This document shows positions 3,001 through 20,774 of a stretch of 22,916 nucleotides of DNA, piece after piece. Positions within the stretch are counted from its first letter, which is position 1. Every line of letters starts with the position of its first letter. The stretch covers positions 1 through 22,916 of IMG/VR virus record IMGVR_UViG_3300029787_000354; one strand, 5' to 3'. The notes under the pieces are model-generated. The model had not been told where the DNA came from and ran no database searches. It saw only the letters and a program-made list of their open reading frames with translations. The position numbers and the translations under genes were made by a program. This stretch comes from a virus.

Positions 3001-3889
3001 CTTCTGATAACTTATTATATTCTGGGTTAATCTTTTGAGAAGCAATGACACCTTCTCTTACTTCCATCAACTCTATAAAGTTGGATGCCTGAGTAGAGTT
3101 TACATTCTTCTTAGTTAAAGTTGCTCTTATTTTTAATCTATCTGCACCAGGCGCAGTATAATTATTGAATGAAGATGCATTATCAGTTAAATCTGGATCA
3201 ATATCTGAATTTATAACTTCTTCTAAAACTTCCAATCCAATTTTATATGTTGGAGTCGTGCTATAAGGTTCTAATATAATAGACTGTTCAGGAATATCTA
3301 TAAAATATCCTCTTACAAAATAAACACCTTTTGATAAAACACAACCAGATCCATAAGAAGTAGGAACAGTAGAAGTTGTTAGAGCAACTCCTTCCCCTTC
3401 TTGAATAACAACATTTTTATTGGTTATTTGCCTTTCAATCAAAAGAGTTTCTGATGGTGCAAATACTGCAGTTTCTCCATCAGTGGAAGGATCCAAATAC
3501 TCTACAAATAAAGTATATGGTTCACCAGGAAAAGCATTTAAGTTAAGATATGCCTTTATCTTTGCTCTTACACCAGACTTACTTCCAACTACCCTTGCTT
3601 CTAATAAGTCATCAATATACTGGGTAACTGCTACACCAGAGTAAGAAACATTAATTCTTACAACAGGATATGCATTATTATATTTTAATCCACCACCAGT
3701 TACTGAACTACCATCTTTGAACATATGCTGTCCAAATCGTTCAACTTGGTTTTGTAGAATTGACTGTAAACCAGTTAATTCTCTAGCCTGAACAGGAAAT
3801 CCAGGTTTAAATAAAACCTTGTAATAGTTGTCAGACGGATTATAATCGTCAAAGTAAGGTGCGACGTTGAGATTAGTTTCCTGTGGCAT
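1..3889 (-). CDS. DUF4815-type virion structural protein (3' end outside window)
   Basis: This reading frame starts at the ATG at 3889 and stays open to the left edge, so 1296 residues are visible and the C-terminus is missing. The N-terminus (MPQETNLNVAPYFDDYNPSD, then YYKVLFKPGFPVQARELTGL and LQNQVERFGQHMF) matches what I recall of the DUF4815 family, a structural protein found next to baseplate genes in marine T4-like cyanophages. Around residues 1108-1134 is a charged, probably helical stretch (RYRMRDIRNLERRIKNLEFY) followed by TSLSLLE, also typical of that family. Near the visible end it reads FGPVTWGSWSEI, a tryptophan-rich motif I associate with these proteins. It begins 6 bases after the gp8-like stop and has no clear Shine-Dalgarno, so it is probably translated from the shared late transcript. 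It occupies the gp9/gp10 side of the T4 gene order. A baseplate-peripheral or fibre-attachment role is inferred from position. Confidence 0.85.
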   Translation of the reverse strand, partial: MPQETNLNVAPYFDDYNPSDNYYKVLFKPGFPVQARELTGLQSILQNQVERFGQHMFKDGSSVTGGGLKYNNAYPVVRINVSYSGVAVTQYIDDLLEARVVGSKSGVRAKIKAYLNLNAFPGEPYTLFVEYLDPSTDGETAVFAPSETLLIERQITNKNVVIQEGEGVALTTSTVPTSYGSGCVLSKGVYFVRGYFIDIPEQSIILEPYSTTPTYKIGLEVLEEVINSDIDPDLTDNASSFNNYTAPGADRLKIRATLTKKNVNSTQASNFIELMEVREGVIASQKINPEYNKLSEEFARRTYDESGDYYVIPFNVQPKETLNDYKGNKGIFNSDQLTYNNSVPAENLATYKISPGKAYVKGYEVNIPTNQFLDFQKPRTSKVLKNQSLNYYTGPSFGLNRVNGSPKIGIGTDYTVSLRDARIGVTSTTAAGKEIGLARVYDFALESGSYDAVNPNVNTWDISLYDVQTYTNITANTAVTKTLPQHVKGKSSGATGYLRYDVNAGTAMTAYNVNGKFIQGEQLIFNGIEEGNIIGLTTSYTSSDIKSLYGTVGTANTFNADVKQSVHSTFGEVNITPASGGISTVTSTNATKFFTGITTVGNIVQYTNPGSTDPSYAKVATVSQHSLVLNAVTSVTGVNDGALPTVAINPSDFRVLSSSYQFSTDNTLYTTLPKDKVSNVDLTNANLVIRKEFDVTITNGSSNSINSGSGSETFLPYDEENYCLVRTDGSTEALSADKFVFTNGSQTLTINGLDGLGPAKLIATLRKINVKEKVKTKQKINILSLDSSKYSSSGVGATTLNDGLTYGNIYGTRVQDEEISLGVPDATKIYGVFESSNANDVIFPRLSLISINSDTAKTGDLLDGEEFIGESSKFVGVYIGKVDDGTINYIALNNIEPLSGEVIKFKESGITATVSGITLGSTDITDEFDFDNGQRSTIYDYSRLVRKSGYKEPSKKVKVVFESAYFLTSDVGDITTVNSYGDFSYCSLPKINNTKVCEIIDIRPRVSDFSGTTRSPFEFLGRVFTQDGNSATNILASDQSFIIDYSFYLPRRDKIFLTKDGTLQLVKGIPAETPELPNDINDALEIASASVPAYLCDVSEINLNLSEHKRYRMRDIRNLERRIKNLEFYTSLSLLESDTVNLQIQDADGLNRFKSGFFVDDFSNTTTQLKKTLIKNSIDVKNSELRPAPYTTELDLVISPLTNGIKRSNRVLSLNYNELVAVSQPYASRVENVTPYLVNYYSGSVQLTPSSDVWSDVVMLEARRIEDTTYTQSSGQVSADGRSGFGPVTWGSWSEI

Positions 3890-3895
3890 GATTCT

Positions 3896-5449
3896 TTAGA
3901 ATTGCAAAATGACTTTGATATCTTCCTTTTGGTTTAAAGACCTAGTGATAGCAGGTCTGTTATCAACATATATTACATTTCCAGAGTATTTCTTAACTTC
4001 TGGATTAGCCACACCGAGAGTAAATGACTGACCAAGGTTATATGTTCTATTATTTATTGAGGTAGTATAACCAGTATATGAAGTATCAATTCCTAAGTTG
4101 GTACTTCCACCAAAAATGGTAACAGTTCCACTAGAAGCAGGTGTTGCTGTAAACCTATGCAATTCAAATCCATAAGTAGGATCGGTTTTTAATGAACCGT
4201 CACTATTGAATCCAACAAGACTTTTATCTTGCCAGTATTTCAATACTCCAGTAGTTTGATCATATGAGATCACTCTTCCTACAGCAGTAGATCCTAACCC
4301 AACTGTTTGGGTGACAAAACTATCTGCATTAAATGTTGTTGTGCTGTATCCAGAACCAACCAATTTTAATGCATAAGCTGCACTAGCTTTATCTAAATTT
4401 AATTTTGCAACAGATCCAAAAGCATCAGGATTTTCAACTATACCAACTCTTGCTATTTGGTTGCCAGTTACAAAATCAGGGTTCTCAGTATCATTCTCAA
4501 TTCTAGAATAAACTAGAACTTTATTTGCACCCAATTCACGATATACATCTGCACCATGTCCACCTTCTGGTGGGATAATAACATTAAAAATAGGAGCAGT
4601 ACTTCCTGTAGGAACATTACCACTGACTAGATCTACAGTTCCGTATGTATAACCCGATCCACCTTTAGAAACAGTAACTGTATCTATTTTGGAATCATTA
4701 TTAACAACAACTGTACATTCACCACCAGATCCATCACCAAGAATAGGTACTCTAGTATAAGTTCTATTAGCAGTCCCTAAACCAACTCCCCTATTAACAA
4801 CAGTAACTATTTTTAATTCACCACTAGTAGATGCATGATTTCTAACCGATGCATCAGCAGTATTAGTATCCCAGTCTGTTGGAACTGGCATAAAATTAGT
4901 AGAATCAAATTTTACAATATCACTTGGTTTGATAGTGTACAGATATTTCCAAACATAACCATCACCACTATCACCAGCAGATCTAGGTTCCAAATCAGTA
5001 AATGTAGGTTCATCTAGTGAAGGTCTTCCACTTGGATTCTCAGGATCAGTTCCGTTTTGCAGACAAACATAAACTTTAAAATCTTCATTTACAATATAAT
5101 AATTAGCAGAATATAAATTGGTTGCACCAGATGGTTTAGATGTATTTGTTCTACTAACATCTCCTCTATACATATCATATGTTGTACCAGAAATCCAAGC
5201 AGTTTTAGTGACCACTTGTCTGACATCACTAGGAGAAATCTTCTTTAAAGCAACCATCGTATCCCAATAGTCATCCTCTTGTTCAAAACTATCTTTAGGG
5301 GCTGGAGGATCCGTGTCCCAAGAAGAAGAATAATTATTTGGATTGGGAAGACCAACAAAAGAATAATATGAATTAGTAGTCGAAGTCACACCAGAAATAA
5401 AATTTCTAGCATTCAAAATTCTAAGCTGATCAGTTATAATGGCGGACAT
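3896..5449 (-). CDS. 8: T4 gp8-like baseplate wedge protein
   Basis: The 517-aa product resembles the gp8 wedge subunits annotated in marine T4-like phages. The N-terminus is MSAIITDQLRILNARNFISG, then SYYSFVGLPNP (28-38) and YWDTMVALKKISPSDVRQVV (61-80). GRPSLDEPTFTDLEPRSAGD (141-160) leads into GYVWKYLYTI. The C-terminus ends in DNRPAITRSLNQKEDIKVIL plus QF. In T4, gp8 is a wedge component about 334 residues long. The extra length here lies mainly in the middle (about 235-460) and includes a glycine/tyrosine beta module (TVTVSKGGSGYTYGTVDLV, 257-275) of the kind repeated in the neighbouring giant protein. The ATG is 19 bases after that protein's stop. No Shine-Dalgarno is visible (AAAAAAATCCCAA precedes the ATG), but an AATAAATA late-promoter-like motif lies just upstream. 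The gp8 call rests on remembered family sequence and on gene order. Confidence 0.82.
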   Translation of the reverse strand: MSAIITDQLRILNARNFISGVTSTTNSYYSFVGLPNPNNYSSSWDTDPPAPKDSFEQEDDYWDTMVALKKISPSDVRQVVTKTAWISGTTYDMYRGDVSRTNTSKPSGATNLYSANYYIVNEDFKVYVCLQNGTDPENPSGRPSLDEPTFTDLEPRSAGDSGDGYVWKYLYTIKPSDIVKFDSTNFMPVPTDWDTNTADASVRNHASTSGELKIVTVVNRGVGLGTANRTYTRVPILGDGSGGECTVVVNNDSKIDTVTVSKGGSGYTYGTVDLVSGNVPTGSTAPIFNVIIPPEGGHGADVYRELGANKVLVYSRIENDTENPDFVTGNQIARVGIVENPDAFGSVAKLNLDKASAAYALKLVGSGYSTTTFNADSFVTQTVGLGSTAVGRVISYDQTTGVLKYWQDKSLVGFNSDGSLKTDPTYGFELHRFTATPASSGTVTIFGGSTNLGIDTSYTGYTTSINNRTYNLGQSFTLGVANPEVKKYSGNVIYVDNRPAITRSLNQKEDIKVILQF

Positions 5450-5465: not shown

Positions 5466-5473
5466 TATTTATT
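5466..5473 (-). promoter_or_regulatory. possible late promoter (AATAAATA) before the gp8-like gene
   Basis: The minus strand reads AATAAATA here, overlapping the stop codon of the giant gene, 17-24 bases upstream of the gp8-like ATG. It fits the NATAAATA form described for T4-like cyanophage late promoters, and the distance to the start codon resembles that of the gp25 promoter. The region is AT-rich, so a chance match is quite possible. Confidence 0.3.
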
Positions 5474-8400
5474 CGTTATAATTAGTGGATTTCAATGGAA
5501 CCACTCTTTCAACAATTGGTGAAGTGGAAATGCCCAATAAACCGTTGTTGTAAGAATTGAAAACTTTATTTTTAGATCTATTATTTATGGAGATTCTTCC
5601 CCAAGAATAGTCACCAAATACTTCACTATGACCTAAACCAGTAAGTCCATTATAATTTTGAACGCTTACTGTAACTTTCGCAACGTAAGTTTGTCCTATA
5701 GCAACAGCATTTGTCTGAGCAATAGATACAGATGCTACTTCATATATATTATCCAAGAAACTGCTTCCTGAACCAACAACAGCACCAGCACTATTTAATG
5801 AAGTAACTCCGTTGCCAATATTAGAATTGGATACCACAAAGTAATATCCTGTCTGTATACCACTTACAGTGATAGCAGTTCCTACAACATCAGAATCTCT
5901 GAATAAAGAATCACTAGGAAGTAATAGATCAAATACGATTCCAGTGGTTACACCGACAGTAGTAGTTGATACTCCAGATATTGTACCAAAATCACCAGTA
6001 TATGAAACTTGGGTTACTTCCTCTACATATCCAGAAGTCTTAGGATCTGCTATTAAAACTACAGGTGGATTGGAAGAAGTATATCCAGTTCCAGCCACAG
6101 TTACACTAATAGAAGTAACTATACCAGCAGTGATAGAAGATGTAGCAGATGCTCTCAAACTGGATGCAGTGCTAACAGGATTTCCAATAGTTACTGATGG
6201 AACACCAGTATAACCAATACCACCATTTCCGATTACAACAGAACTGATGGTTCCTAGTCCAGAAACTACAGCAGTAGCAGAAGCAGCAACTACAGAATCT
6301 TGTGAGATAATTCTTATACTGTTATTTTTAGTCTGATTTTCCTTTGAGTTATCAAAGAATGTTCTAACATTTTCAACAAACGCAACTGTAGAACCAAGAC
6401 TAAGTGGTTGAATCAAGTTAGTGTTTGGATAGATTAAAGGCTCATATAGTTCTCTATCTTTAGGTACAGGAGTTCCATCAATGAATCTATCTTCAGTCTG
6501 TCTAGACCAAGTTACTGGTCTAATATAGGTTTCATTCTCATTTATTCCTGGTCCACCGTAAGTATTTGTGTCAACACTATCAGTGGCATTTATCTTAGTA
6601 ACCAATCTATCATTTTCCCTATATTGTATTTCATCACCTGTTATCTTAATAACATCACCAACCTTAACTTGCTCCAATATATCAACTTCTCTTACATCGA
6701 CTGCACCTGTTCCTTGATAGAATAGTAACTTAATCAAATCACCAACTTTAGGTGCTTCAGTAAATTCTATGAAACTTCCTCCATCAAAAATATAACCATC
6801 ACCAGGAATCTGAAGGATGTCATTGATGAAGACTAATAAAGTATCTTGAACTTTAACAGGAGAACCAATTCTAGATTTTATTGTTTTTTGAACACCATTT
6901 AACTTAATAGCAAATGTTCTCTTATTTCCATCAAACAAATTACTAAAGTCATCTAGAACTAAGAAGTCACCTAAAGTCCAACCAGCAAAAGTATTGCTTT
7001 CAGTTTTTTCTATTGTAAGTTGGAACTCTTTAAATGATGCACCAAGAGTAGAATCAGTTGGTATTCCAACAGTTCCTCCCACACCTATTGATAAAACTTC
7101 TTCTTGACCATAACCAGATCCTTGATTATTGATAACGAAGTCTATAATACTACCTGCCATACCTACAACGATATCTGCAGTAGCCTCTGTTCCTACACCT
7201 GCACTTCCAGTATAAACTAATGGAATGTCTGTATATGAAAGAGGAAGATCAAATATAACTTCTGGTGGATTAGTTGAAGTATATCCACTACCTGGATTTG
7301 TAATAGCAACACTAACAACATGACCATTGCTAACAGCAGCAGTACCAATAAACTGAATGTTAGGAATACCAGTACTTAAAGTTTTAACTCCAACATTAAC
7401 TGTAGTTTGGATCCCAGATCTATATCCAGAACCACTATTTCCAATTGCAATAGAACTGATAGTTCCAAGACCAGAAACAATGGCAGTAGCACCAGCAGCA
7501 ACTAAAGGTTGATATCCCAATCCTTGAGTAGATCCAACTGATATAATAATTCCACCAACTGGTACAGTTGCGGTATTTGGATCAGATGATACTGAGGAAG
7601 CAGATCCAGTGAATTGAATACTAGTAATACCTGAGTTTTCGGATAAAGTGTAGTTGCTAATAACATTAACAGGATCACTATACCTAGATGGTCCTTGAGC
7701 AATCTGATTTATTAATATAATCGCATTGTCAGAAGATATTCCAGTAACATTTGATCCATTAGATTTTAAAGTAAATTCTGTACTATATCCAGTGAACCCT
7801 GATGCTATATCATCAAAGATGAAGTTTTTAGCATATGGCTCGTCAGCAGTACCACTTACTCCAGATCTCATAAATGATCTTCCATTAAAGGTAGAGTGGG
7901 TTGCAATTCCAGTCCAATATACATCATCAGGATCTGCTGCAGTTGTACTTATAGGAGTAAGTCCTTTAGGTGCAGTATAGAAGTTAATTTCATTTCCAAC
8001 GATATTATAGTTTCCATTAATCTTAGTCACCATCGCATCAGCATCATGTGCTGAAAGTTGAGTTCCCATCCAAGGTCTCTTAACTCTTAGCTTGTTAGTA
8101 GCACCAAATCCTACCATATCCACTCTCATTATCTCATCATCAATTTGTAGAAGATCTCCACCAAATATGGAAGTTATTCCAGTGATCGTTATATTGTCAA
8201 TATTATAATCAACATTACCAGCTAAGTTTGTAGTGACAGCACTAGCAACAACTGGAGTTTGAATTACATTATCAAGACTTACCAAAACTTTGCTATTTGC
8301 ATTTTTAGAAGTAAGAGAATGAGAAGTTCCTATTCCTACAGCAGTAATATCTAAAATAACAGGTTTAGCTTTTAAAGCATCTTCTGCAGTTGCAGCAAAT

Positions 8401-11400
8401 TTTAGATTTGAATCATCAGACTTCACAGCAAATACATTTGATGGAAGTTTATCGGTAGATCCTACACCAGGAATGGTTGTTGTCTTAATACCAATTGCCT
8501 GACTTGTACCAGCACCTAAAGTGGCATAGGTTAATGATTCACCAGTTACAAAGTAATGATCTGGTATAAAGACCTTATTATCAGTTAGATTAACAACACT
8601 CGATTGAGCACCTAAGAATTGTCTCTTAAATATTGGTAATTGCTTATGCTCAATTTCAAATGCACGTTTTACATCAGTTTCTGTTCCATAATACTCACCT
8701 TCACCTGTATCGATAGATGCGTTAGTAAAGCTTATTAAGTTATCACTAACAGAATCATTTACAGTTCCTACTGCGTTCTGCAAGACTCTTACTTGAACAT
8801 TTGCACTAGCTAAAGGTTTGAATGTAAGTTGTCTGACTCCTGCTCCAGTAATATTTCCTCCAAAGTCACCTAAGTTACCTCCAGTCTGAACAACACCATA
8901 TTCAGTGATGTACACTTCATTTGCATCATTAACAACTAATATTTCAGATGCTTGATATTGATTATTTGTAGTATCTTCAATACTTACAAAATAGTAAGCA
9001 CTTCTGTAGGCATCTGAATATTCTGCAACAACTGTCTCTACAGGAGATGTAGAAGAAGCAATAGATGTTTTACTAGAAGCTATTTGACCAGTATTAAATG
9101 TATGAGTACCAACTCCAGAAGAAGTGGTATCTGACATTGCTATTCTCAAACTATTAATATGATATCCTGTTGCAGTAGTTACACCTGCATTAGGAGTAAA
9201 ACTAATATTGACATAATTGCCAGATAAAGTTGCTCCATATGTTCCAATTCCAGCAGAACCTAGAGGACTTGATGGCATGTCAGAACTTACCTGACCATAC
9301 TCCATAAGTTCAACATTAGTTCCATCATGAACCATAGTTAACTCATCTACTTCATAATATTGATATGCTGAATTAGTTGCAGCTGCGGATACAGTTATCT
9401 TTGCGGACCTGTAAGTTTTTGCTATTCCTACGATGTTTACAGCAGTAGTAACTCCCAATCCAACAGTTGAAGTGGCACTACCAACATTAGCAATATCACC
9501 AAAATCAGTAGAACCTATACCAGCAACAGTATCAGCAATATTATAAGTTAATGTAGTTACAAAATAATCATTTGCTCTATACTTCTTAGGATAGAATAGA
9601 AGTCTTCCTTCATCTCCTAAAATATCAAAATCAAAAGTTCCAAGATCTGCGTATGTGTATACTCCACCATATTGGTTAAGCATCGCAGTTGAACTATTAT
9701 GAATCATAGAAATAATATAAACCTGTCTTTCTTCACCAAATCTAGTATCTTGAATATATGCAATAAATTTCTTATGTCTTGCAGAAGTTAGTGGGAATAA
9801 ATCTACAGCAGCAAATCTATCAGTTCTTGGTAAATCATTAAACTGAGAACTTACGTCATCAATCGACAAAACTCTATTTCCAATAGATTCAATATAATCT
9901 TGAAGTATCTTAGTCTTAAATACAACTTCATTAGATATAACAGTGGTATCATCAACTTTTAGAGTTTTTTCTGTTACCAAGTCATAATCAGGCATAGTAT
10001 TCAAACTCAACACTGAATCCAACATTGCTATTGATTCAACTGAACCTGTTTGGTTGGTTCCTAAACCAACGCTTTGATTATTTTGAGTAATATCATTTTC
10101 AATAACCAAATCACTAAATTTCTTAAATCCAGCAGTATGGTTTAACGAAGAAACTGCTTCATCCCATTTTTCTAACTGAACAGTAGATTTTAATGCATAT
10201 GAGAAGTACTGATAATAATCATTATCGGATAATCTTTGTAAGTTATTATTTAAGATACCTGTCTCACGTTTCCATCCTTTTGGAACAATAGAAGAAGCAC
10301 CAATATCATATTGAGCATTATATGATATTCTTTCTTTTACTTTACCTTTAGTTCCTGAAGAATCTCCAGTTATAGTTTCATTTATATTAAACAATCTTGG
10401 AGATGATACTTTTAGACTACCTGATAATCCATTCCATGATTGGACAGTTCCAGTTGCTGATTTTGATGTAATTGTCTCACCTTTCTCAAAATCATTGGTT
10501 ACCACTTCTACCCCAAAGATAGGGAACCATTTCTCTGGTATTATTGTACCCGAAGAATTCTGAACATCAAAATTACCAGGAATATTACCATCAAAAATTG
10601 AATCTTGTAAACTGTAAGTAACACTACCAAGTGTTCCACCAATATTAGGATCTGTAGCTGTTATCTTGAATCGTTTGTAATTATAGTTTGATGAATTGTA
10701 TCCTTTACCTGTAGTTCCAACTCCAACACTAACATTTTCGATTAGAACACTCTCACCAACTGCAAATGGATAATCAGCAGCACTACTAAAACTTGCACCT
10801 ATGGTAACAGTTACATCTTTAGTTCCTAGATTATAATCCATAGAACTAATGCTAACTCCATTAGAGTTATTGACTGGAATAATAGTAGGAGCATCCTTAT
10901 TCAAGGAAGTTGTATTTTTAACAATTCCAACATTAGAGTTTCCTAAAGTATATTCTAAAACTACTTCTGTTACTGGTAACTTAGTAATTCCATCCAATAC
11001 AACCAAATCTGGTGCTGTAGTGTAGAAATTACCAACTGAGGTAATTCCAACCTTACTTAAAGAATAGAAAGAATCTACAGATACGTATTGAGGAAGTAAA
11101 GCTTTAGGTTGTAAAGTTTTATCAGCAGAATATTCGTATCCAATATCTTGGATATCTACACTTTCAATACGACCAATAGTAAGACTAATAGGATCTAAAA
11201 CTGCACCATAACCTTTTGATGTAGTAACACCTAAATTTGCTACTCTATCAATACCAGGAATTCTACTATACCCAAGACCTCCATTTCTAACACCAACCAA
11301 AGCTATGGGACCACGAGCAGTTTTAGATGAGGTAAGATACTTAAATTTACCATCTGCTGGAACATAAAGAGTTTTACCTGCTTCTTGAGTTAAATTAAAA

Positions 11401-14400
11401 CTAAATGTAGTGGAACCAATTCCAGAAATTGAACGAACTTGATTTAAAATATTCTTTTCAGTTATTAAAGAAGATGGTGAAATAATATTTGATGTATCTT
11501 TTATTATTTCTTTTTTAACATCTGTGTTTAGTGAAAGGTTAGCAGGAACCATACTATAATATAAATTTTCTGGTGTATCATTAGAAATTTGGAAACTTAG
11601 ATTTGCATCCCCACTGACACCAGGAGTTCCAGTCTTTGTAACATTAAATATTGTAGATTTAGGAGTGTTATTGTAAACATTTTTACACTCTTTATCAAAA
11701 TAAAGATTGAAATCAAAAGCAGCATAACTTACACCACTTTTAGAAAATGACAATGAAGAATCTGATAAATCAAAATAAACTTTTTGATTTGCTTGAACTC
11801 TGATTGGTGGATTGACTGGATTTATAGTTCCAGCAGAAGCACTTGTAATATCTACAACAGAAGCATTAAATTTTACAGCTTCATAGAAATCATTGCAAAG
11901 ACTTATTTTATTTCTATCAACAACTGATACAAAATAAATCTGATTGTCTTTAAGTCCACCCGATGCCGTACTAGCAGTATGAATAACTTTATCACCATCA
12001 GATAATCCATGATTTAGCACGGTTATTGTATTGTCTGATACTGACACATTACCAGAAGTAAAGTTCTTTGGATTAATTACTAATCTTCTATTATAATCAT
12101 TATATGCAACTGCAATTGTAGTTGTAATACCAATGGTGGCATCAATGACAATATTATCATTAATACTCATTCCATGTGTAGAAGCTGTCGCAACAGTCGC
12201 ATCAATTTGAGTAACTTCACCTTTAATTACATTTTGATAATTAGTTGTAAAGCTATGATATGTTCCTGTACCAATACCAGTAAGGTATAATGGAAGTTTT
12301 GATAAATCATCTATTGCTAGATTTCTAAATTCACCTGTGTTACCTAAACCAACTTTAACAGTGGCAATACCAATTATATCTTTACTTCTCCTAGCAACAA
12401 ATAATTTATCATTATTAGACAAATTAAAACTTGCTGCACCAGCATAGGTTTGAACACCAATAACTGCTCCACTATTTGAATTGTATATAATTTCATCACC
12501 TGTTTCCAACCCATGATCAGGAAGGTAAATTGATGCTAAAGAAAGAGTAACTTGAGTTGAACCAGTTCCTGCATTTGCTATTGTTATAGTATGTCCAATA
12601 CCAGCAGTTCCTATTCCTAAAGATTCTACTGGATTAAAGTATATCTCTTTGTTTAACTTATAATCAAATTGAGAAGATTGTGTTGATTGGTAGAAAATGA
12701 AGTTTCTAGGATCTTGATTCAATCTAGCAAAAGCTGGGTGTGCAGGACTTGCAGTTGCCGACTCACCCCTAAGAATTCTAATTCTACTTTGATCAGTATC
12801 TACATTTAAGACCCTAACCTTCTCTGTTCCAATACCAAGAATATCATTCTCTTTTATAAATGGGAAATCTAATTGACCACTTGCAATATCAACATAGGTT
12901 GTAATTCCAGTAGCAGTTACATCACCAATAGCATTACCTAGTATAAACCTACTAGTCTGGACTCCTATTTGATAAGAAGCACCACTAACAAAGGCATTCG
13001 TACTTAATCCACTAACAGTACCAAAATCTTTATTCTTAATATTATGTGGGCTTGTTGAATACCCTATGATCGCACCTATTTCTCTAAAAGGAGCAAACTC
13101 AATATTACTTACAATCGTACTAGCAACATTAATAGAATGTATTTTCTTTCCAGAAACAGCATCAACCCTTGCAACAGCTCCAGAACCACCTGACCCCTCA
13201 TTATCAAATACAACACTATCATCTACAGCATAATCAAATCCTCCTGTAACAATTCCTACTTGTGTTAATTTTCCTTCGGAAATTGATTTAACTACAGTTT
13301 TCTGCTTATGATCTTTTGATGGATCTATTAGATAGTTGTAATTTGTATTTCCATCAAGAAGTCCATATGGTGTCGTATTTCTATACCAGTCACCATTATT
13401 GATATCAACATCCTTTTGATTTGAATACCTATCAAAGTTAAAAGCAATAGGATCAGACTTAAATGAGTTTCCTACAAAGTATGGGAACTGAGGTCTTCTA
13501 TAGTTTTTGAATGGTGCTTGAGAATCGATAGATTCGGAATCTATAGTAGCAAAATATGCATATGTTCCATTTGGATAATCTGGAGTTATACCATATCTTC
13601 CATTATGTTCATCTAGATCACCATTTTCAGAATATACATAATCTTCAACAAAAGATCCACTTGGGAATACTAATTCACCAGACTCACCTAGTGGATTTGG
13701 TCTATCGGATACAACACCTATAGTGTATCCAGACTTCATAATTTTAATTGCACCACCAGTAGGAAGAGTGTATGCATAAGGACCATATATGGGGTTTCCA
13801 TCATATGCCCAACCTAAAAGTGGTGAGTGGTAGATAGAAGTTTCTTCTACATCATCTTCAAGAGATAAGTCTACAAAGTTAGCTGGGTTCCCATCAATAA
13901 CTTGTGTTGAGTAAACTGATCTTCTTAGTTTACGAGGAGAGTACAAATGAGTAAATTCAATCTCAAAATCAGAGTTAATACCTTCTGTCAAAACTCCATC
14001 ATCTTCAGATACTTTATTGGTGTTAACTAATCTTTCAAATGTATTAACAGTCCATTGTTTTGATCTTGATTCAAACTGAGCTTCTGATCCAGACGCAGTT
14101 ACGATAACAGTAGTATCTTTTTTATCATACCCCAATCCACCACTAATAACCTTTATAGATTCAATAACACCAGCATTCAATACAGGTATTAAAATACACC
14201 CTTTACCAGATCCTTTAATTTCTAAAGTTGGTGGACTATTATATTCTGCTCCAGAACTTAGAACCAAAACTTCAACAATTTTACCATTTGCAATAACTGG
14301 TTTTAATTGTGCAGAAGCTCCTGTTTTTAAAGCAAAAGTTGGTTGACGATTATAATTTAATATCTCTGAGGATCCATATCCCAATCCACCATTTTCTATG

Positions 14401-17400
14401 AATACAGATTCTACAGATCCTCTGAATATTGGTTGTACAATAGCATCAAACTTTTGACCAGTTAGAGTGGAAACTCCTATAGTTCCTTCTACAGTTACTT
14501 TAATTGGAGGATAATTAAACTCATGAGTACCAGAACCAACAGATTGTAAATTAACATACTTCTTATTATCATAATAGAAATTGGATGCAGTAGATCCAAT
14601 TCCAACTTCCGACAGTCTAAATGAGTTATCACTAACCTTTGATACAATATAATTTGTATTTGTTAGACCTTCTATAGAAGTTCCTTTAGCAGTATATAAA
14701 ATTGTTTCTCCATCACCATATCCATGATCATTAATAGTAACTATATTGTTAGCTGTATTAATACCACTTATATTTGTTGTGGTTCTTTGATTAGTATATC
14801 CCGATCCAGAACTACCAATACTGATCGACTTAAGAACTTTCTTAAATTTGCTAGATCTGAAGTTATGAACACCTGTTCCATAAGATGTTAGGTCAACACT
14901 AGATATGCCCGCCACAGCAGCAGGAAGGGTGTTATGTAGTGATATGGTAAATGCATCCTTGATAGAAACATGGTATGCTGCAGACGTTGTGAGACCCCCT
15001 ACAGCGGTCTGTCCATTTGGTCTGTATATAACACTCTCACCATCTCTAAATTTGTGGAATGTCGAAAATGCAACTGTATTATTAGATAGGTTTACTAATC
15101 CAGCATTTTGTATTGCATTAAATTCTACAGAGTGTTCTACAGAAGATAAATTGGATTTTGCCTTTGCTCCTTTACCATTACCACCAGTGATAGTGATAAT
15201 AGGATCATCCATATAGTCAAATCCACCATCTATTATTTCAATTCTATTCAAATCACCTTTAACAGCACAGAATGCAGAACATCCTGATCCTACAGAATCA
15301 GTTACAGTTAAAACAGGAGGATTGATGACATCATAATCATTTCCACCACTAACAACTGCAATTTCTTCAAGAGGACCATAAAATACAGAATCATTTGACT
15401 TATAGTTTGATATTTCAACACCATTAATTAAAATTCCTGTTTGACCAGGTTTTGTTTCAGACTTAACCGATGATGTAATAGGATTTTTTATTTTTCTAAT
15501 AAGTTGCTGAGCTTTCAGTCTTTGATCTGAAAACTTTGTCAATTCAAACCTATTATTAGTTACAGTTCCTGTTACTGTGATAAATTTACCATTGTAGATA
15601 TTGGATTTACTTTTCGCAATCTTAATCGTATCAACATCAACCTTCTTAGCAAAATATACACCATCAACGATGTTTAATTTATTTGTGCCTTCACCAGCTA
15701 CGTATGTTAATGAATCTCCAGTATAAAAACCATGATTAGCAATAGATAGATTTTCCCCATTAAAGGTTCCTGTAACTATTACAGATCTATCACTAACATC
15801 TAATGATTCATTAAGATATGATGGAATAGAAGGTGAACTAAGATATAATGAACCTTCTTTAGTATAAACATTTTCAACGTTAGTAGTTTGAATGCTTAAT
15901 TCAGGATAATCTTGAACATTAGCTTTAGATAATATCTTTTCAATTGTAAAGTGTCTTGTTATGTCTAGAAGACCTTGATCGTTAATAGTAAAGTGATAAT
16001 CATTTACAATAGAAGTTATATTACAAACTAAGTTGACACCATCAGTAGTTTTGATATTAGCTTTATCACCTATTGTAAAATTATGCTTATCGTAGGTGAT
16101 AACTCCATATGTGGAGTTGGAAGCATCCAACAACTCTAAAGATTTTATATTATAGTTTGTTGCAATATTAAAGAACCAATTATTTGCACCTTCATTCGTA
16201 ATTCCTATACCCAAGCCTTGTGGTTCAATAACATCACCAACTTCAGTCGAAAATTGTAGTGAATGTGTATTTAATTTTGAAGTAACACCAGTTACTCGAA
16301 CTTTACATAGATTTGATGTTCCTACACCAACATATCCGTATGCAAACTCATCAACTCTCAAATCTTGCTGAGAATCTATATTTTTAGTAACTCCAGAGCA
16401 TCCATAGAACTGAGTGAGTGATTTTGATGTATAAGTTATCTTTGTACTGATTCCATCAGAGTGTTTTGTGACTAATGTTCCTGAAGTGTTAAATCCTATT
16501 GTTGAATCAACATCAAGGACGGTAGAACCGATAGAAACAGGTGTAATTACCTTTGTAGTTGGATGAATTGAGAATTCACCAAATATAGATCCCCTTACTT
16601 CAATATCTTTGTCATAATCATAGTCCAAGCTAATGATATAGTAATCTTTATCATTACGTCGAATCCTTTGAACATTAGTTATAGATCCCCTTGCACCTTT
16701 GATTCCATTTTGGTTAAAATCTTGAAAAAGTGTCCTATTTTCAAGATCTTGTGGATTTCCTTCAAGTGCCTCAACAACTAGATCTTTACAAATTCGATAT
16801 TGAGCATCTGAAGGCGCAAAAAGATAATCTCTTGGTTTTATTACTTCTACATCAACACCATACAATGCACGGAACAAAATTTCAAAAGATTTATCAGTTC
16901 CTTTTGATGTATAGAAGTCTTTTGACTGTTTTATGAAAATTCTTTGATCTACACTTGAATCTAACTGTCTTTCTTCAAATCCTGGTGTAATTTGACCCTT
17001 TACATTCGTAAAAAACTCTTTTAAGAATAAAATACTTAAATTATCAACTGTCGCATTTTGAGAATGAGTAGATATTTGTGATTCATTGAAAACTAACTCA
17101 TCAGGATTGTTGGGACTCCTAAAAGAGGTAATTCCACTAAATCCCCTAGAGCATCCAGTAAAGGTATTGGTTGTTATTCCACTATATGTTATAATTTCAG
17201 AATCAATCTTAATCAAGCCATAAGATTCTGGAAATCCACTCGTCGAATCAACAGAAATAGTACTATCAACAAAACTAACATCCGAAGTCAATGTAGTAGA
17301 GTCTACAAGATTTGTTAATTCATCAATTTTGACATATTTGTCAATATTCTTAAAAAGATCTAAAGTCAATCCCTGACTTTCCATAGATCTATAATATTCA

Positions 17401-17495
17401 GTCAAAAATTCCCCAACAAGTGGGTAATCTTCTCTTACATAATCAGGCAGTTGATTGGATACAACTGAACTAATCTTAACTCTAGTATCTGCCAT
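5469..17495 (-). CDS. giant modular baseplate protein in the gp7 position
   Basis: This gene encodes 4008 residues, over half of the window. It lies between gp6 and a gp8-like gene, where T4 has gene 7 (gp7 is 1032 aa), so it is probably the wedge core protein or a functional replacement. Residues 1-60 (REDYPLVGEFLTEYYRSMES at 21-40) and 190-225 resemble the N-termini of large structural proteins at this locus in marine phages. The rest is modular. There are about 14 copies of a GGxGYxxxPxV beta motif, at least six copies of an NHGxxxGDxVxY module, and three 'IDxExIxYxG...RG' modules near residues 95-120, 1547-1590 and 3116-3150. A YHYH-like motif lies at 1228-1242, and three related modules of about 125 residues at 2576-2909. 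No signal peptide or membrane segment is seen. The ATG follows the gp6 stop by 9 bases without a Shine-Dalgarno. The structural role is firm, the gp7 identity less so. Confidence 0.8.
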   Translation of the reverse strand: MADTRVKISSVVSNQLPDYVREDYPLVGEFLTEYYRSMESQGLTLDLFKNIDKYVKIDELTNLVDSTTLTSDVSFVDSTISVDSTSGFPESYGLIKIDSEIITYSGITTNTFTGCSRGFSGITSFRSPNNPDELVFNESQISTHSQNATVDNLSILFLKEFFTNVKGQITPGFEERQLDSSVDQRIFIKQSKDFYTSKGTDKSFEILFRALYGVDVEVIKPRDYLFAPSDAQYRICKDLVVEALEGNPQDLENRTLFQDFNQNGIKGARGSITNVQRIRRNDKDYYIISLDYDYDKDIEVRGSIFGEFSIHPTTKVITPVSIGSTVLDVDSTIGFNTSGTLVTKHSDGISTKITYTSKSLTQFYGCSGVTKNIDSQQDLRVDEFAYGYVGVGTSNLCKVRVTGVTSKLNTHSLQFSTEVGDVIEPQGLGIGITNEGANNWFFNIATNYNIKSLELLDASNSTYGVITYDKHNFTIGDKANIKTTDGVNLVCNITSIVNDYHFTINDQGLLDITRHFTIEKILSKANVQDYPELSIQTTNVENVYTKEGSLYLSSPSIPSYLNESLDVSDRSVIVTGTFNGENLSIANHGFYTGDSLTYVAGEGTNKLNIVDGVYFAKKVDVDTIKIAKSKSNIYNGKFITVTGTVTNNRFELTKFSDQRLKAQQLIRKIKNPITSSVKSETKPGQTGILINGVEISNYKSNDSVFYGPLEEIAVVSGGNDYDVINPPVLTVTDSVGSGCSAFCAVKGDLNRIEIIDGGFDYMDDPIITITGGNGKGAKAKSNLSSVEHSVEFNAIQNAGLVNLSNNTVAFSTFHKFRDGESVIYRPNGQTAVGGLTTSAAYHVSIKDAFTISLHNTLPAAVAGISSVDLTSYGTGVHNFRSSKFKKVLKSISIGSSGSGYTNQRTTTNISGINTANNIVTINDHGYGDGETILYTAKGTSIEGLTNTNYIVSKVSDNSFRLSEVGIGSTASNFYYDNKKYVNLQSVGSGTHEFNYPPIKVTVEGTIGVSTLTGQKFDAIVQPIFRGSVESVFIENGGLGYGSSEILNYNRQPTFALKTGASAQLKPVIANGKIVEVLVLSSGAEYNSPPTLEIKGSGKGCILIPVLNAGVIESIKVISGGLGYDKKDTTVIVTASGSEAQFESRSKQWTVNTFERLVNTNKVSEDDGVLTEGINSDFEIEFTHLYSPRKLRRSVYSTQVIDGNPANFVDLSLEDDVEETSIYHSPLLGWAYDGNPIYGPYAYTLPTGGAIKIMKSGYTIGVVSDRPNPLGESGELVFPSGSFVEDYVYSENGDLDEHNGRYGITPDYPNGTYAYFATIDSESIDSQAPFKNYRRPQFPYFVGNSFKSDPIAFNFDRYSNQKDVDINNGDWYRNTTPYGLLDGNTNYNYLIDPSKDHKQKTVVKSISEGKLTQVGIVTGGFDYAVDDSVVFDNEGSGGSGAVARVDAVSGKKIHSINVASTIVSNIEFAPFREIGAIIGYSTSPHNIKNKDFGTVSGLSTNAFVSGASYQIGVQTSRFILGNAIGDVTATGITTYVDIASGQLDFPFIKENDILGIGTEKVRVLNVDTDQSRIRILRGESATASPAHPAFARLNQDPRNFIFYQSTQSSQFDYKLNKEIYFNPVESLGIGTAGIGHTITIANAGTGSTQVTLSLASIYLPDHGLETGDEIIYNSNSGAVIGVQTYAGAASFNLSNNDKLFVARRSKDIIGIATVKVGLGNTGEFRNLAIDDLSKLPLYLTGIGTGTYHSFTTNYQNVIKGEVTQIDATVATASTHGMSINDNIVIDATIGITTTIAVAYNDYNRRLVINPKNFTSGNVSVSDNTITVLNHGLSDGDKVIHTASTASGGLKDNQIYFVSVVDRNKISLCNDFYEAVKFNASVVDITSASAGTINPVNPPIRVQANQKVYFDLSDSSLSFSKSGVSYAAFDFNLYFDKECKNVYNNTPKSTIFNVTKTGTPGVSGDANLSFQISNDTPENLYYSMVPANLSLNTDVKKEIIKDTSNIISPSSLITEKNILNQVRSISGIGSTTFSFNLTQEAGKTLYVPADGKFKYLTSSKTARGPIALVGVRNGGLGYSRIPGIDRVANLGVTTSKGYGAVLDPISLTIGRIESVDIQDIGYEYSADKTLQPKALLPQYVSVDSFYSLSKVGITSVGNFYTTAPDLVVLDGITKLPVTEVVLEYTLGNSNVGIVKNTTSLNKDAPTIIPVNNSNGVSISSMDYNLGTKDVTVTIGASFSSAADYPFAVGESVLIENVSVGVGTTGKGYNSSNYNYKRFKITATDPNIGGTLGSVTYSLQDSIFDGNIPGNFDVQNSSGTIIPEKWFPIFGVEVVTNDFEKGETITSKSATGTVQSWNGLSGSLKVSSPRLFNINETITGDSSGTKGKVKERISYNAQYDIGASSIVPKGWKRETGILNNNLQRLSDNDYYQYFSYALKSTVQLEKWDEAVSSLNHTAGFKKFSDLVIENDITQNNQSVGLGTNQTGSVESIAMLDSVLSLNTMPDYDLVTEKTLKVDDTTVISNEVVFKTKILQDYIESIGNRVLSIDDVSSQFNDLPRTDRFAAVDLFPLTSARHKKFIAYIQDTRFGEERQVYIISMIHNSSTAMLNQYGGVYTYADLGTFDFDILGDEGRLLFYPKKYRANDYFVTTLTYNIADTVAGIGSTDFGDIANVGSATSTVGLGVTTAVNIVGIAKTYRSAKITVSAAATNSAYQYYEVDELTMVHDGTNVELMEYGQVSSDMPSSPLGSAGIGTYGATLSGNYVNISFTPNAGVTTATGYHINSLRIAMSDTTSSGVGTHTFNTGQIASSKTSIASSTSPVETVVAEYSDAYRSAYYFVSIEDTTNNQYQASEILVVNDANEVYITEYGVVQTGGNLGDFGGNITGAGVRQLTFKPLASANVQVRVLQNAVGTVNDSVSDNLISFTNASIDTGEGEYYGTETDVKRAFEIEHKQLPIFKRQFLGAQSSVVNLTDNKVFIPDHYFVTGESLTYATLGAGTSQAIGIKTTTIPGVGSTDKLPSNVFAVKSDDSNLKFAATAEDALKAKPVILDITAVGIGTSHSLTSKNANSKVLVSLDNVIQTPVVASAVTTNLAGNVDYNIDNITITGITSIFGGDLLQIDDEIMRVDMVGFGATNKLRVKRPWMGTQLSAHDADAMVTKINGNYNIVGNEINFYTAPKGLTPISTTAADPDDVYWTGIATHSTFNGRSFMRSGVSGTADEPYAKNFIFDDIASGFTGYSTEFTLKSNGSNVTGISSDNAIILINQIAQGPSRYSDPVNVISNYTLSENSGITSIQFTGSASSVSSDPNTATVPVGGIIISVGSTQGLGYQPLVAAGATAIVSGLGTISSIAIGNSGSGYRSGIQTTVNVGVKTLSTGIPNIQFIGTAAVSNGHVVSVAITNPGSGYTSTNPPEVIFDLPLSYTDIPLVYTGSAGVGTEATADIVVGMAGSIIDFVINNQGSGYGQEEVLSIGVGGTVGIPTDSTLGASFKEFQLTIEKTESNTFAGWTLGDFLVLDDFSNLFDGNKRTFAIKLNGVQKTIKSRIGSPVKVQDTLLVFINDILQIPGDGYIFDGGSFIEFTEAPKVGDLIKLLFYQGTGAVDVREVDILEQVKVGDVIKITGDEIQYRENDRLVTKINATDSVDTNTYGGPGINENETYIRPVTWSRQTEDRFIDGTPVPKDRELYEPLIYPNTNLIQPLSLGSTVAFVENVRTFFDNSKENQTKNNSIRIISQDSVVAASATAVVSGLGTISSVVIGNGGIGYTGVPSVTIGNPVSTASSLRASATSSITAGIVTSISVTVAGTGYTSSNPPVVLIADPKTSGYVEEVTQVSYTGDFGTISGVSTTTVGVTTGIVFDLLLPSDSLFRDSDVVGTAITVSGIQTGYYFVVSNSNIGNGVTSLNSAGAVVGSGSSFLDNIYEVASVSIAQTNAVAIGQTYVAKVTVSVQNYNGLTGLGHSEVFGDYSWGRISINNRSKNKVFNSYNNGLLGISTSPIVERVVPLKSTNYNE
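8768..9771 (-). repeat. three related ~125-residue modules within the giant protein
   Basis: Residues about 2576-2909 contain three diverged copies of one module. Each has an opening beta stretch (KFIAYIQDTR; SAKITVSAAA; SAYYFVSIED), a central VYIIS / LTMVHD / ILVVND element, an 'xxxxYG' element (MLNQYGGVYT; VELMEYGQVS; VYITEYGVVQ), and a closing beta stretch with a glycine turn (RLLFYPKKYR; VNISFTPNAG; QLTFKPLASA). The YG elements fall near residues 2604, 2726 and 2857, a spacing of about 125. The boundaries were read by eye and are approximate. Confidence 0.65.
13770..13814 (-). other. YHYH-like motif inside the giant protein
   Basis: Residues 1228-1242 read GWAYDGNPIYGPYAY. This matches the hallmark 'G.A.DG.PIYGPYG' segment of the YHYH domain family, which is found mostly in secreted bacterial and marine proteins. 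Flanking sequence (SPRKLRRSVYS before; DEHNGRYGITPDYPNGTYAY after) also fits, since YHYH proteins carry a 'D..NGR...T.EYP.GTYHY' segment. The function of the domain is not established. Confidence 0.75.
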
Positions 17496-17504
17496 TTATA
17501 TTGG

Positions 17505-19505
17505 TTAGTACGAGGGAGTGGATGTTGTAGAATCTCCTAAAACACTATATGTGGGTAAAGATGTAACATCGATACCATCACCAGGAGCAATTCTTGCTAT
17601 GTTACCATTCATATAGCTAGGTGTAGATTTATATAAGGTTCCTGAAGGATTAGATCCTGAAGAAATATCATCCGTTAACATATTTAACGTACTACTATTA
17701 ATATCTAGTTGCAAATAAAGATCCTGTAATCCAATAACATCATTTGAACGAGGACAAACCGATAATTCAATAATTGGTTGCCCCTGAAGTGTTTTAGAGG
17801 TGCTTATAAGGTTAATTGCATCTATCATGATCTCACCTTTCTGATAATCAACAGTTCCAATGTTTCTTCTAATAATAGAAGGTTGGGTTTGAGAATCAAG
17901 CTTGAATAAGAATAGAGATCCTTTCTTCATATCAGCATTTGGAGAATCACTGATATAGACAGTATCATTTACTCCAAAAATTTTAAATCCAGATGACTTA
18001 ATGTTATAAGAATTTGCATTTTTGATGTAAAATGGGTTTCCGAAGCAAACTTCATACTCAGCAACCTGATTTAACCGTGCTTTAAGGTCTCTTCTCATTG
18101 CAACAGTCGTAATATTGGAAGTAACAGACTGATGACTGTTATCAATCAAGGTTTGGAACTTACTGTACTTGAATTTTGCACCATATTTGTTCATTTCACT
18201 TGATTGTGCATAATCAGTGATGTTATTTGAGATAAGTGTCTTCACAAAATCAGCACTTGGTGCTAAATTTGCATTATAATATGCAGTTATGTCAGTCTCA
18301 ACGTAGAGATACTTGAGATCGAGAATTTCGGGTACAATTCCTGCTACAGAATAGCTTCTTAACTTGTCTTTTAGGTTATCTTTGATTGAGTTAGGTACAA
18401 ATGGACCATAAAATGGTTTAATTGTAATAAAAACCTTCCCATATTGTGGTGGTTCTAATTCTTCACCACCAAAAACCGATACAGATTGAGTTTCTGGGTA
18501 AATTTTAGGTATAAGTGCTTCATAATCTGCTGCAGTCACTGCTCTATTCTGTGTAGAGTAGATTCTAGGAGCATAACTCTTGATAGAATCAATAGATTCT
18601 ATTTCTTTACCTCCTTCAGAAGCTTGTGTCGTACTAAGAAGTGAAATTCCGTTACTTACAAGGTTATTATTGTTATCTACAACACGACCATTGAACAAAA
18701 ATGAAGAAATTCCGTTTCCAGATTCACCATTTGTCTTAATATATGAAGTTTCAACGTAATTTAACGATTTTAACTTTTCACCAAAAATTCCATCACCGAA
18801 AATTAACTCATATCGTTCATCTTCAATCTCTTGAATAAAGAATACACGAGAAGATGCAGTAACTTCAAATAAACTATCAGAAAGAAGGTACTTTTTAGAT
18901 GATGTACTTGCTTGTGTATCTCTAACTTCTACTCTCAAAGTCGATGTATCAATATGATCGTTATCTAAGATGTATCTTTTAGGTGGAGAGGGGTTATCTG
19001 CTTCCACTGTAAAGTTTGCAGTCAGATATGTACCTTCAAAGATCTGAATATCAGTAAAATTAGCAAATCCGTTGTTATCTACAGGTACTGTGATGTCTGA
19101 AGGAATGGCAAATGCATAACTTTCTGAACCAAATGTAGATGCAGCAGTACAAACAACACCTTTTTTAAGTGTTAGTGTAATTGGTTTTGTGGAAAACCCT
19201 GTTGTATCCACATAAAAGGAGACAAGTGCATGTGCAGCAGTCCTAGAACGAGGAACATAACCAATATTACGTGCAAGTGCAACAACATTCTCTCTTAATG
19301 TTGCACTATCAATGAAAACCTCATTACTAACCATGTTAGCATTGTATGAGGAGATATATGTATTGTATGCAAGAACGTCAATTATGGTTGAAAGGTTAGA
19401 ACCTTCAAAGTCATAGTCCGTAAAATTGCTATTTGATCGTAAATAGTCTTTTATGGAGACTTTTATTTGATCAAAATCTAGATTTGTAAAATTTACTAGT
19501 GCCAT
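17505..19505 (-). CDS. 6: baseplate wedge subunit gp6
   Basis: The 666-aa product is almost the same length as T4 gp6 (660 aa). Its N-terminus (MALVNFTNLDFDQIKVSIKD, then DYDFEGSNLSTIIDVLAYNT and NEVFIDSATLRENVVALARN) is the conserved gp6/J-like wedge signature of T4-type phages. A mid-protein segment, SYAPRIYSTQNRAVTAADYE, followed by IYPETQSVSVFGGEE, is the region that resembles the gpJ family of contractile-tail baseplates. In T4, gp6 dimers join with gp7 and gp25 into the wedge core bundle and link neighbouring wedges into a ring around the hub. The ATG overlaps the gp25 stop by one base (TAATG), so translation is probably coupled, and the giant gene follows after 9 bases. A single TTTTCCACA site at 19188-19196 lies within the coding sequence and looks incidental. 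Confidence 0.95.
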   Translation of the reverse strand: MALVNFTNLDFDQIKVSIKDYLRSNSNFTDYDFEGSNLSTIIDVLAYNTYISSYNANMVSNEVFIDSATLRENVVALARNIGYVPRSRTAAHALVSFYVDTTGFSTKPITLTLKKGVVCTAASTFGSESYAFAIPSDITVPVDNNGFANFTDIQIFEGTYLTANFTVEADNPSPPKRYILDNDHIDTSTLRVEVRDTQASTSSKKYLLSDSLFEVTASSRVFFIQEIEDERYELIFGDGIFGEKLKSLNYVETSYIKTNGESGNGISSFLFNGRVVDNNNNLVSNGISLLSTTQASEGGKEIESIDSIKSYAPRIYSTQNRAVTAADYEALIPKIYPETQSVSVFGGEELEPPQYGKVFITIKPFYGPFVPNSIKDNLKDKLRSYSVAGIVPEILDLKYLYVETDITAYYNANLAPSADFVKTLISNNITDYAQSSEMNKYGAKFKYSKFQTLIDNSHQSVTSNITTVAMRRDLKARLNQVAEYEVCFGNPFYIKNANSYNIKSSGFKIFGVNDTVYISDSPNADMKKGSLFLFKLDSQTQPSIIRRNIGTVDYQKGEIMIDAINLISTSKTLQGQPIIELSVCPRSNDVIGLQDLYLQLDINSSTLNMLTDDISSGSNPSGTLYKSTPSYMNGNIARIAPGDGIDVTSLPTYSVLGDSTTSTPSY

Positions 19506-19906
19506 TAGCGTGTTGGCTGTAGTGCGAATTCTAATTGTTGAGGTAAAACGTCTATTCCTACGATGTCATACGTAATCTTTACGTCAAATGCATTGTTATC
19601 GTAGTCAGGAATACACTCTACCTTCTTCAATTCCACTCTTGGTTCATAATTAGTGATGGTTGTTATAATCTCTTCCTTAATTGCGGCTGCTGTTTGATCA
19701 TCTAAGTTCTCAAAAAGAGATTCTTTGACTCTTGAACCCAAATCGGGATCAAAAAATCGTTCACCAGGAGTCGTAAACACCAAGTTCCTCAAAGAACGTG
19801 CAATAGCAGTCTCATTCTTAATGGTTATAAGGTCCAAATTAATTGGATTCACCTCAAGTGACATACTTAAGTCCTTAAAACCCTTGCTGATCCGTGGAGA
19901 TGGCAT
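19505..19906 (-). CDS. 25: baseplate wedge subunit gp25 (gpW/gp25 family)
   Basis: At 133 aa the product matches T4 gp25 (132 aa). It shows the family layout: an N-terminal 'TIKNETAIARSLRNLVFTTP' segment (about 28-47), GERFFDPDLGS (48-58), a helix (AAAIKEEIITTITNYEP), and the conserved EPRV tetrapeptide at 88-91. It then ends in an alternating beta strand pair (VKITYDIVG). gp25 belongs to the gpW/gp25 baseplate family shared by contractile phage tails and type VI secretion (TssE), and pins the wedge core near the sheath initiation site. It is the first gene of the late operon, with two CTAAATA motifs 21-38 bases upstream of its ATG. No Shine-Dalgarno is present (TTTCCTTTTTTA precedes the ATG). 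Its stop shares a base with the gp6 start. Confidence 0.96.
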   Translation of the reverse strand: MPSPRISKGFKDLSMSLEVNPINLDLITIKNETAIARSLRNLVFTTPGERFFDPDLGSRVKESLFENLDDQTAAAIKEEIITTITNYEPRVELKKVECIPDYDNNAFDVKITYDIVGIDVLPQQLEFALQPTR

Positions 19907-20006: not shown

Positions 20007-20774
20007 CTAGATTATCCGAGTCTTTTCATGCCCTACGCGTATCCGAGGGTCACACCAGATCTCATATCCTTTCTCCTTGGCATCTAAGCAGAATGATACA
20101 TCTTCTCCACACATATCTTGTACTTTACCAGATTCAAAGACTTGCATCTTAGGAGCAAACCAAGGATACTCAAGGTTCTCAAAGACACCATTCTTAATCA
20201 ATACCCAACCAAAACCAGTATAGTCTACAGTAAAAGGTTTCTTCCTTCTATCCATAGTCTCAATGGTTTCGTGATTCATTACACCACCATTAGTTCTGAA
20301 GTCATCTTCTTCTAACCAGTGTGCAACTGAGGTAGTCTTACCATCTTCAGTACAATACCAACCAGCAGTGATCTCCTTTTCATTGCCATCCTTATCAATC
20401 GCAAGATCACATAACTGCCAAAACTTCTGTGCATCAAATACTATGTCAGAGTCAATCCACAATTGATAGTCATATGCAAGCTTTCCATCCCAAGGTATTT
20501 GATTAGGTCCACGTAAGACATTTGCACCTAATACCTTACATCGTGCAAAGTTAACCATAGAGGAGTAGTCTTGACTTATCTGAATTGACATACCGTTCTG
20601 AACCATGTCAAAACAAAGTTGTACAAAGTTCTTCAGAAATATGTAAGAACATCCACGACCAGGTAAACAAAATACTATTGCCTTACCTTTCATTCTTTCT
20701 TTTATAGCATCTATGTCCCAACTAGGAGTATTTGCCTTGGGTGCAGCTGCTTTAACAGTAAATCCTTTTGCCAT
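20007..20774 (-). CDS. GT-A fold glycosyltransferase-like protein
   Basis: The 255-aa product has the outline of a GT-A type, nucleotide-sugar-dependent glycosyltransferase. It has an opening strand (KAIVFCLPGRGCSYIFLKNF, about 31-50) and a DxD-like metal/nucleotide motif in YDYQLWIDSDIVF (DSD at 108-110). A GFGWVLIKNGVFE acceptor-side segment follows (187-199). The C-terminal GEDVSFCLDAKEKGYEIWCD (223-242) ending in VGHEK resembles the E/D-D plus histidine end of GT2-like enzymes. Its substrate cannot be read from the sequence; phage enzymes of this type can modify virion proteins, DNA or host surface glycans. It stands alone, with a perfect host-type promoter, an AAGGAA ribosome binding site 10 bases before the ATG, and its own terminator. 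This suggests early expression, unlike the late operon downstream. Cysteine is frequent (9 residues), fitting a cytoplasmic protein. Confidence 0.7.
   Translation of the reverse strand: MAKGFTVKAAAPKANTPSWDIDAIKERMKGKAIVFCLPGRGCSYIFLKNFVQLCFDMVQNGMSIQISQDYSSMVNFARCKVLGANVLRGPNQIPWDGKLAYDYQLWIDSDIVFDAQKFWQLCDLAIDKDGNEKEITAGWYCTEDGKTTSVAHWLEEDDFRTNGGVMNHETIETMDRRKKPFTVDYTGFGWVLIKNGVFENLEYPWFAPKMQVFESGKVQDMCGEDVSFCLDAKEKGYEIWCDPRIRVGHEKTRII

Follow-up and report, generated by a model that had tools for sequence, protein, structure and literature searches.

In bacteriophage T4, gp7 is a protein of the baseplate wedge that associates with two gp6 chains and takes part in initiating wedge assembly. 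It has 1032 amino acids (aa), and its core lies at the C-terminal end (Pfam domains at residues 643-689, 766-861 and 920-1012), preceded by about 640 other residues. T4-like cyanophages abound in the sea, and little is known about how their tails sense the host and hold fibres. In one paper, T4 gp7 is stated to be absent from cyanomyophages and pelagimyophages and to be apparently replaced by VrlC (PMC7029224). Proteins named 'baseplate wedge initiator' have been recorded at 7312 aa in P-SSM4, the largest bacterial-virus protein in the set concerned (PMC8553790), and at 6619 aa in the virion proteome of S-SZBM1 (S-SZBM1_208; PMC9146016). The table row of S-SZBM1_208 (724.20 / 6619 / 71 / 13.5%) is read here as kDa, aa, peptides and coverage.

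Here we analyse a window of 22,916 bases, a 22.9-kb fragment from one virus record (IMG/VR record IMGVR_UViG_3300029787_000354), in which a 4008-aa protein occupies the slot of gp7. This protein is very probably the baseplate wedge gp7 of the T4-like cyanophage (Kyanoviridae) kind, with a small core that is split by inserted modules and followed by an extension, and with added domains that may reach outward at the periphery. The size of giant gp7 proteins is already known; the splitting of the core and the nature of the additions are new architectural detail, and no description of the split core or of a two-gene form was found in the open part of the literature.

The slot and the split core

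The giant frame (5469-17495, minus strand, stop included) is intact, with 4008 codons, an ATG start and a single terminal stop, and occupies 52% of the window. Its GC content is 31-37%. Since by our own arithmetic about 7% of random codons would then be stops, a chance origin of the frame is excluded. It is not an accident of assembly either, because the IMG/VR loci L198 and L199 (4008 aa) and L202 (4007 aa), in which all 12 query segments were matched, repeat the size in near-identical contigs. On the minus strand, the genes run from gp25 through gp6, the 4008-aa protein and gp8 to the beginning of a VrlC-type DUF4815 protein. The gp7 slot is thus fixed by GPW_gp25 and Gp6 domains on one side and by a Phage-Gp8 domain and a DUF4815/VrlC-type protein on the other, and the protein matches PHROG 2885, 'baseplate wedge subunit', at 3530.9 bits. 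The original prediction had placed a 4008-residue protein in the gp7 slot, taking up half of the window, and had given T4 gp7 as 1032 aa; all of this holds.

From the slot, the profile matches of the core and the superposition of a modelled domain V, we conclude that the giant protein is gp7. The N-terminal part of the core (N-core, residues 1-300; 16596-17495, minus strand), a helical part and the start of gp7 domain V, matches PF23786 at 34.7 bits (cut-off 27). Against the T4-type gp7 profile, it reaches an hhalign probability of 96.5%, with window residues 185-289 corresponding to T4 725-812, and ten window segments outside both core parts give at most 0.5%. When a profile of residues 1-700 (57 rows) was compared with 177,635 distinct PDB sequences, T4 gp7 came first (E 4.7e-5) and Klebsiella KP1 gp7 next (E 5.3e-5). 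The same search also gave two non-phage rows (E 0.34 and 0.44), which we set aside as noise.

Structure models were made for two pieces, residues 1-700 and 2200-3000. The first has a predicted local distance difference test score (pLDDT) of 67, and its sole Foldseek match in the PDB at E<=0.001 is a KP1 baseplate chain that fits gp7 because of its length, 1031 aa. With VIA-align, residues 229-406 (16278-16811, minus strand) superpose on T4 gp7 760-844 (5iv5_BJ) with Z 9.1 and a root-mean-square deviation (rmsd) of 2.1 Å over 84 residues; a type C module (309-373) breaks up the predicted domain V fold. Further matches of this piece are 5hx2_A (Z 8.4, rmsd 2.3) and 9f4a_A0 (Z 8.9, rmsd 5.0). In 14 named phage genomes, all matches to PF23786 and phrog_964 fall inside the slot protein (S-CAM9 has none in either family), so that no second true gp7 was found elsewhere in the genomes of these relatives.

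The C-terminal part of the core (C-core, residues 2250-2570; 9786-10748, minus strand) corresponds to the second half of the short gp7s. It matches the profile of Melnitz-type short gp7s at 97.7% (hhalign) and the short gp7s of BUCT-ZZ01 and phiN3 by BLAST. With a 97-row profile, its best-conserved stretch, residues 2415-2461, corresponds to T4 848-892 at 34.8% (E 4.1e-4; reversed control 0.1%). Since T4 725-812 and 848-892 are thus matched at residues 185-289 and 2415-2461, about 2,100 residues stand where T4 has about 36. On these alignments, the gp7 core is cut in two by an insertion, not merely lengthened. The short gp7s of the Melnitz/HTVC008M type (about 900 aa) have both core parts in the same order, at 11-291 and 544-677, but with about 250 residues between them. 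In PF23786, the two parts are immediate neighbours (positions up to 221, then from 231). This family gives two separate matches in Melnitz-2 and BUCT-ZZ01, and in S-SM1 two matches about 8.2 kb apart within one 6180-aa frame.

Likeness to T4 gp7 is therefore limited to domain V with the preceding helices (T4 725-812 and 760-844) and the stretch T4 848-892, whereas the additions, located within and behind the core, have no match in T4 gp7. For the T4 N-terminal domains (1-640), no segment outside the core parts scores above 0.5% anywhere along the T4 profile, and the short gp7s are too short for these domains as well.

Several observations weigh against the identification. The direct match of the C-core to T4 is weak (14%, or the above 34.8% with the 97-row profile), its model has a pLDDT of about 30, and it has no PF23786 match itself, the DSL-LC03 counterpart having one (E 0.0014). 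T4 gp7 domain VI (PF21456, T4 920-1012) was not reported in the Pfam scans, and the C-core model is too poor for it to be sought there. Across the whole N-terminal piece, the Foldseek superposition is poor (template-modelling score 0.10, rmsd 30.5), and the Z of 9.1 for T4 gp7 is tied with that of V-ATPase barrels matching another part (about 443-522). We took the latter matches to reflect a small barrel of a common kind. A plain phmmer search with the full-length giant protein against the PDB found no gp7 and nothing useful, and a profile of residues 2200-3000 gave nothing useful there.

The phmmer result is what one would expect if true gp7 were absent and VrlC stood in its place, the giant protein being another structural protein, as the statement of PMC7029224 quoted above would suggest. 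A VrlC-type gene is indeed present in the window (2-3889, minus strand, cut by the window edge; PF16075, 200.4 bits; phrog_358). Against such a replacement, the profile and structure comparisons find the gp7 core in the slot, and relatives of the short Melnitz gp7 are encoded by the pelagimyophages HTVC008M and Mosig. In addition, a PF23786 protein occupies the gp7 slot in phiN3 and Ps15, which also have a VrlC-labelled gene, so VrlC is no stand-in for gp7 in these two phages. We consider the replacement very improbable, and the profile matches and models contradict the published absence of gp7 for cyanomyophages. In the records NC_020484 (HTVC008M) and MZ577096 (Melnitz-2), the short gp7 is entered as 'head closure Hc2' or 'hypothetical protein'; the former label is perhaps an error introduced via PHROGs 3465 and 460, both of which match the Melnitz protein and carry this name.

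The original prediction had regarded the length as unusual, which is not borne out. The slot proteins of named Kyanoviridae have 3048 (S-PM2), 3274 (Syn1), 3884 (S-CAM9), 4067 (Bellamy), 4107 (DSL-LC03), 4156 (S-SM2), 4307 (P-TIM68), 5195 (P-SSM2) and about 6180 aa (S-SM1, as an open frame), so that the long form is the norm in the family. PHROG 2885, with 4179 positions, already covers it. In one relative, S-SZBM1, the protein is listed as a virion component, which speaks for the gp7 reading. Bellamy gp7 aligns with the window protein over its full length (44.9% over 1-4007), and the 'baseplate wedge initiator' proteins of Bellamy, S-SM2, P-TIM68 and P-SSM2 share its slot and similar length; P-SSM2 and others have further insertions, with otherwise no difference in kind. 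Short forms are those of Ps15 (503 aa), BUCT-ZZ01 (607), Melnitz-2 (896), phiN3 (1006) and T4. Among 139 complete N-core frames in the fetched loci, named phages included, 64 exceed 2400 aa and 71 have 850-1040 aa; these come from the best 80 matches per locus search and represent near relatives with repeats rather than a census. Photosystem reaction-centre genes, as in cyanophages, are present on 2 of the 11 related contigs searched, several of the others being fragments.

The remaining neighbours are gp6 (17505-19505) and gp25 (19505-19906; PF04965), both baseplate wedge genes on the minus strand, and gp8 (3896-5449, minus strand; PF09215), which at 517 aa is longer than T4 gp8 (334 aa). Upstream of gp25, positions 20007-20774 encode a phrog_1574 protein that weakly resembles a glycosyltransferase family (phrog_34859, E 7e-7); by position only, genes of comparable size lie at a corresponding place in Bellamy, S-SM2, P-SSM2 and S-CAM9. 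Rfam and tRNA scans of the window were empty.

The insertion and its repeated modules

The insertion between the core parts comprises about 2,000 residues (about 407-2400; 10296-16277, minus strand) and, by profile comparison and HMMER, contains modules of types A and B and a YHYH domain. A self-BLAST of giant gp7 showed no internal repeat, so that profile-to-profile comparison was needed; a tandem-repeat search of the window DNA was also empty. Among 1540 pairs of 140-residue segments, hhalign gave a probability of at least 90 in 84, and reversed profiles in 0 of 770, none of them reaching even 50%. Four kinds of modules were checked again by HMMER against giant gp7 and its four neighbours, and reversed copies gave no match at 0.01. 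The recurrence of modules that had been read from the letters is thus confirmed, and their beta-rich character is borne out in the sequence and by the two predicted pieces.

Type B modules recur beyond the insertion. One at residues 3730-3821 (6033-6308, minus strand) pairs with 3326-3421 at 99.2% (hhalign) and is also found by hmmsearch. Residues 209-273 of the window gp8 match 4 of the 8 type B models at E<0.01, so that two baseplate genes share one kind of module. A type C-like module (window residues 66-118) has 49% identity to a stretch of a 'tail tube B' protein of Pelagibacter phage Skadi-4, a 34.9-kb phage (L094 4727-4882), from which it would follow that this module travels between unlike phages.

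The YHYH domain lies at residues 1223-1323 (13527-13829, minus strand) and matches PF14240 at 75.3 bits (cut-off 25) over profile positions 93-187 of 193. Residues H1223, D1232, D1285 and D1295 are conserved in 59 of 59 rows, and H1183 in 55. According to PMC7824862, YHYH domains are predicted to be metal-dependent hydrolases with a metal site of three His and an Asp, and are frequently joined to proteins of the tail or baseplate. Of the candidate residues for this site, H1223 and D1232 are kept in every row and H1183 in all but four. Because only the second half of the profile was matched, the first half being unmatched, we make no catalytic claim for the domain.

The C-terminal extension

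Past the C-core, the protein continues for about 1,430 residues (about 2576-4008; 5472-9770, minus strand), a part that one clade of relatives encodes as a gene of its own next to gp7. In nine loci, gp7 has 2531-2628 aa and stops with TAA just past the C-core. In all eight loci of this class that were examined for the next frame, the adjacent frame corresponds to the window protein from residue 2581 onwards, as far as the locus extends; the junction of the ninth, L050, was seen separately. At these junctions, the TAA is followed within a short distance by an ATG, which is in another reading frame in three of the eight (L042, L043 and L057). Note that the class includes near-copies (L040/L041 and L048/L050/L053).

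Such junctions might mean that gp7 was recently fused to the structural gene next to it to give the 4008-aa frame, in which case the length comparison would mix two proteins. However, a tree built by a quick method from the first 1,420 residues places all seven two-gene rows that were included in a single group (support 99, starred) within the fused ones; six of the seven rows were flagged for odd composition or a long branch. In addition, P-TIM68, Bellamy, S-SM2, P-SSM2 and S-CAM9 each carry a single long frame. A recent fusion therefore seems unlikely; because the two-gene rows form one group among the fused ones, the splitting into two genes is probably the derived event. The original prediction was correct in reading a gp7 core here; it lacked both the splitting of this core by an insertion and the separate-gene form of the last third in some relatives.

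Two other interruptions, which may be sequence errors, were left out of the two-gene class. In L270 (2834-15871), an in-frame TAA breaks gp7 inside the insertion, leaving a first frame of 1488 aa, which may also be another split. In L060 (5542-16949), gp7 stops after 2793 residues and an overlapping frame carries the rest; this break lies within the sandwich modules, not at the end of the core.

At the start of the extension stand three beta-sandwich modules in tandem (type D; residues 2564-2925, 8721-9806, minus strand), which are modelled with pLDDT mostly 80-96 and match each other at 96.7-98.1% (hhalign). The C-terminal part of T4 gp9, the long tail fibre connector, is its fibre-binding part, and gp9 is a trimer. 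The second sandwich, residues 2666-2793, superposes on T4 gp9 169-287 with Z 12.4 and rmsd 2.6 over 116 residues (17% identity), and the third on KP1 gp9 with Z 5.6 and rmsd 2.4; T4 gp9 differs in being a separate protein of 288 aa. At the level of sequence profiles, no gp9 match was reached among the 57 segments (hhalign), the two best modules giving 8.3% and 5.2%; the top three segments all fall on gp9 192-242. We tentatively mention, as an unlikely reading of these models, that the three gp9-C-terminal-like sandwiches on each gp7 chain might be a one-chain stand-in for the T4 gp9 trimer, making wedge and fibre socket one polypeptide that one clade has split again into two genes. Three observations weigh against it: S-CAM9 has no type D match, its segment X1 being missing and X2 following directly after the C-core; S-SM1 and P-TIM68 also have a separate gp9/gp10-like gene; and the sandwich fold is common to tailspike ends, those of Acinetobacter matching nearly as well as gp9 (Z 11.2, 9.6 and 8.5).

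The S-CAM9 case, together with a length range of 2531 to 6180 aa among relatives, would also be expected if the extra mass were neutral bulk, with modules growing and shrinking without a dedicated function. The additions are, however, conserved: averaged per 100 residues, identity to the window amounts to 0.35-0.57 for the insertion and 0.45-0.69 for the extension, compared with 0.58-0.61 for the N-core, and H1223 and D1232 do not vary in the 59 rows. We therefore regard neutral bulk as quite improbable.

A proposed role for the added domains

From the observed slot, core, split, repeats and separate-gene form of the extension, we propose that the small gp7 core, as in the short relatives of about 500-1000 aa, would perform the wedge job, pairing with two gp6 chains and helping to start wedge assembly by analogy with T4. 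About 2,000 residues of repeated modules, the YHYH domain among them, lie at a single site between the core halves, and about 1,430 residues come after the core end, starting with the three tandem sandwiches, one of which has the predicted fold of the T4 gp9 C-terminal part. Each wedge would then bear, within the gp7 polypeptide itself, a long string of domains reaching outward. The likeliest place of these domains in the particle is the periphery, where they may take over fibre-holding or surface-binding work for which T4 uses the N-terminal domains of gp7 and separate proteins. The original prediction had likewise suggested an enlarged periphery or fibre-like or adhesion functions, for which the gp9-C-terminal-like sandwiches and the YHYH domain are indirect support.

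A gp7 core that is cut by a chain of modules and carries a detachable extension corrects the published claim that gp7 is missing. The core boundaries tell structure groups where to cut constructs, and the viruses that encode the extension as a separate gene are a natural experiment.

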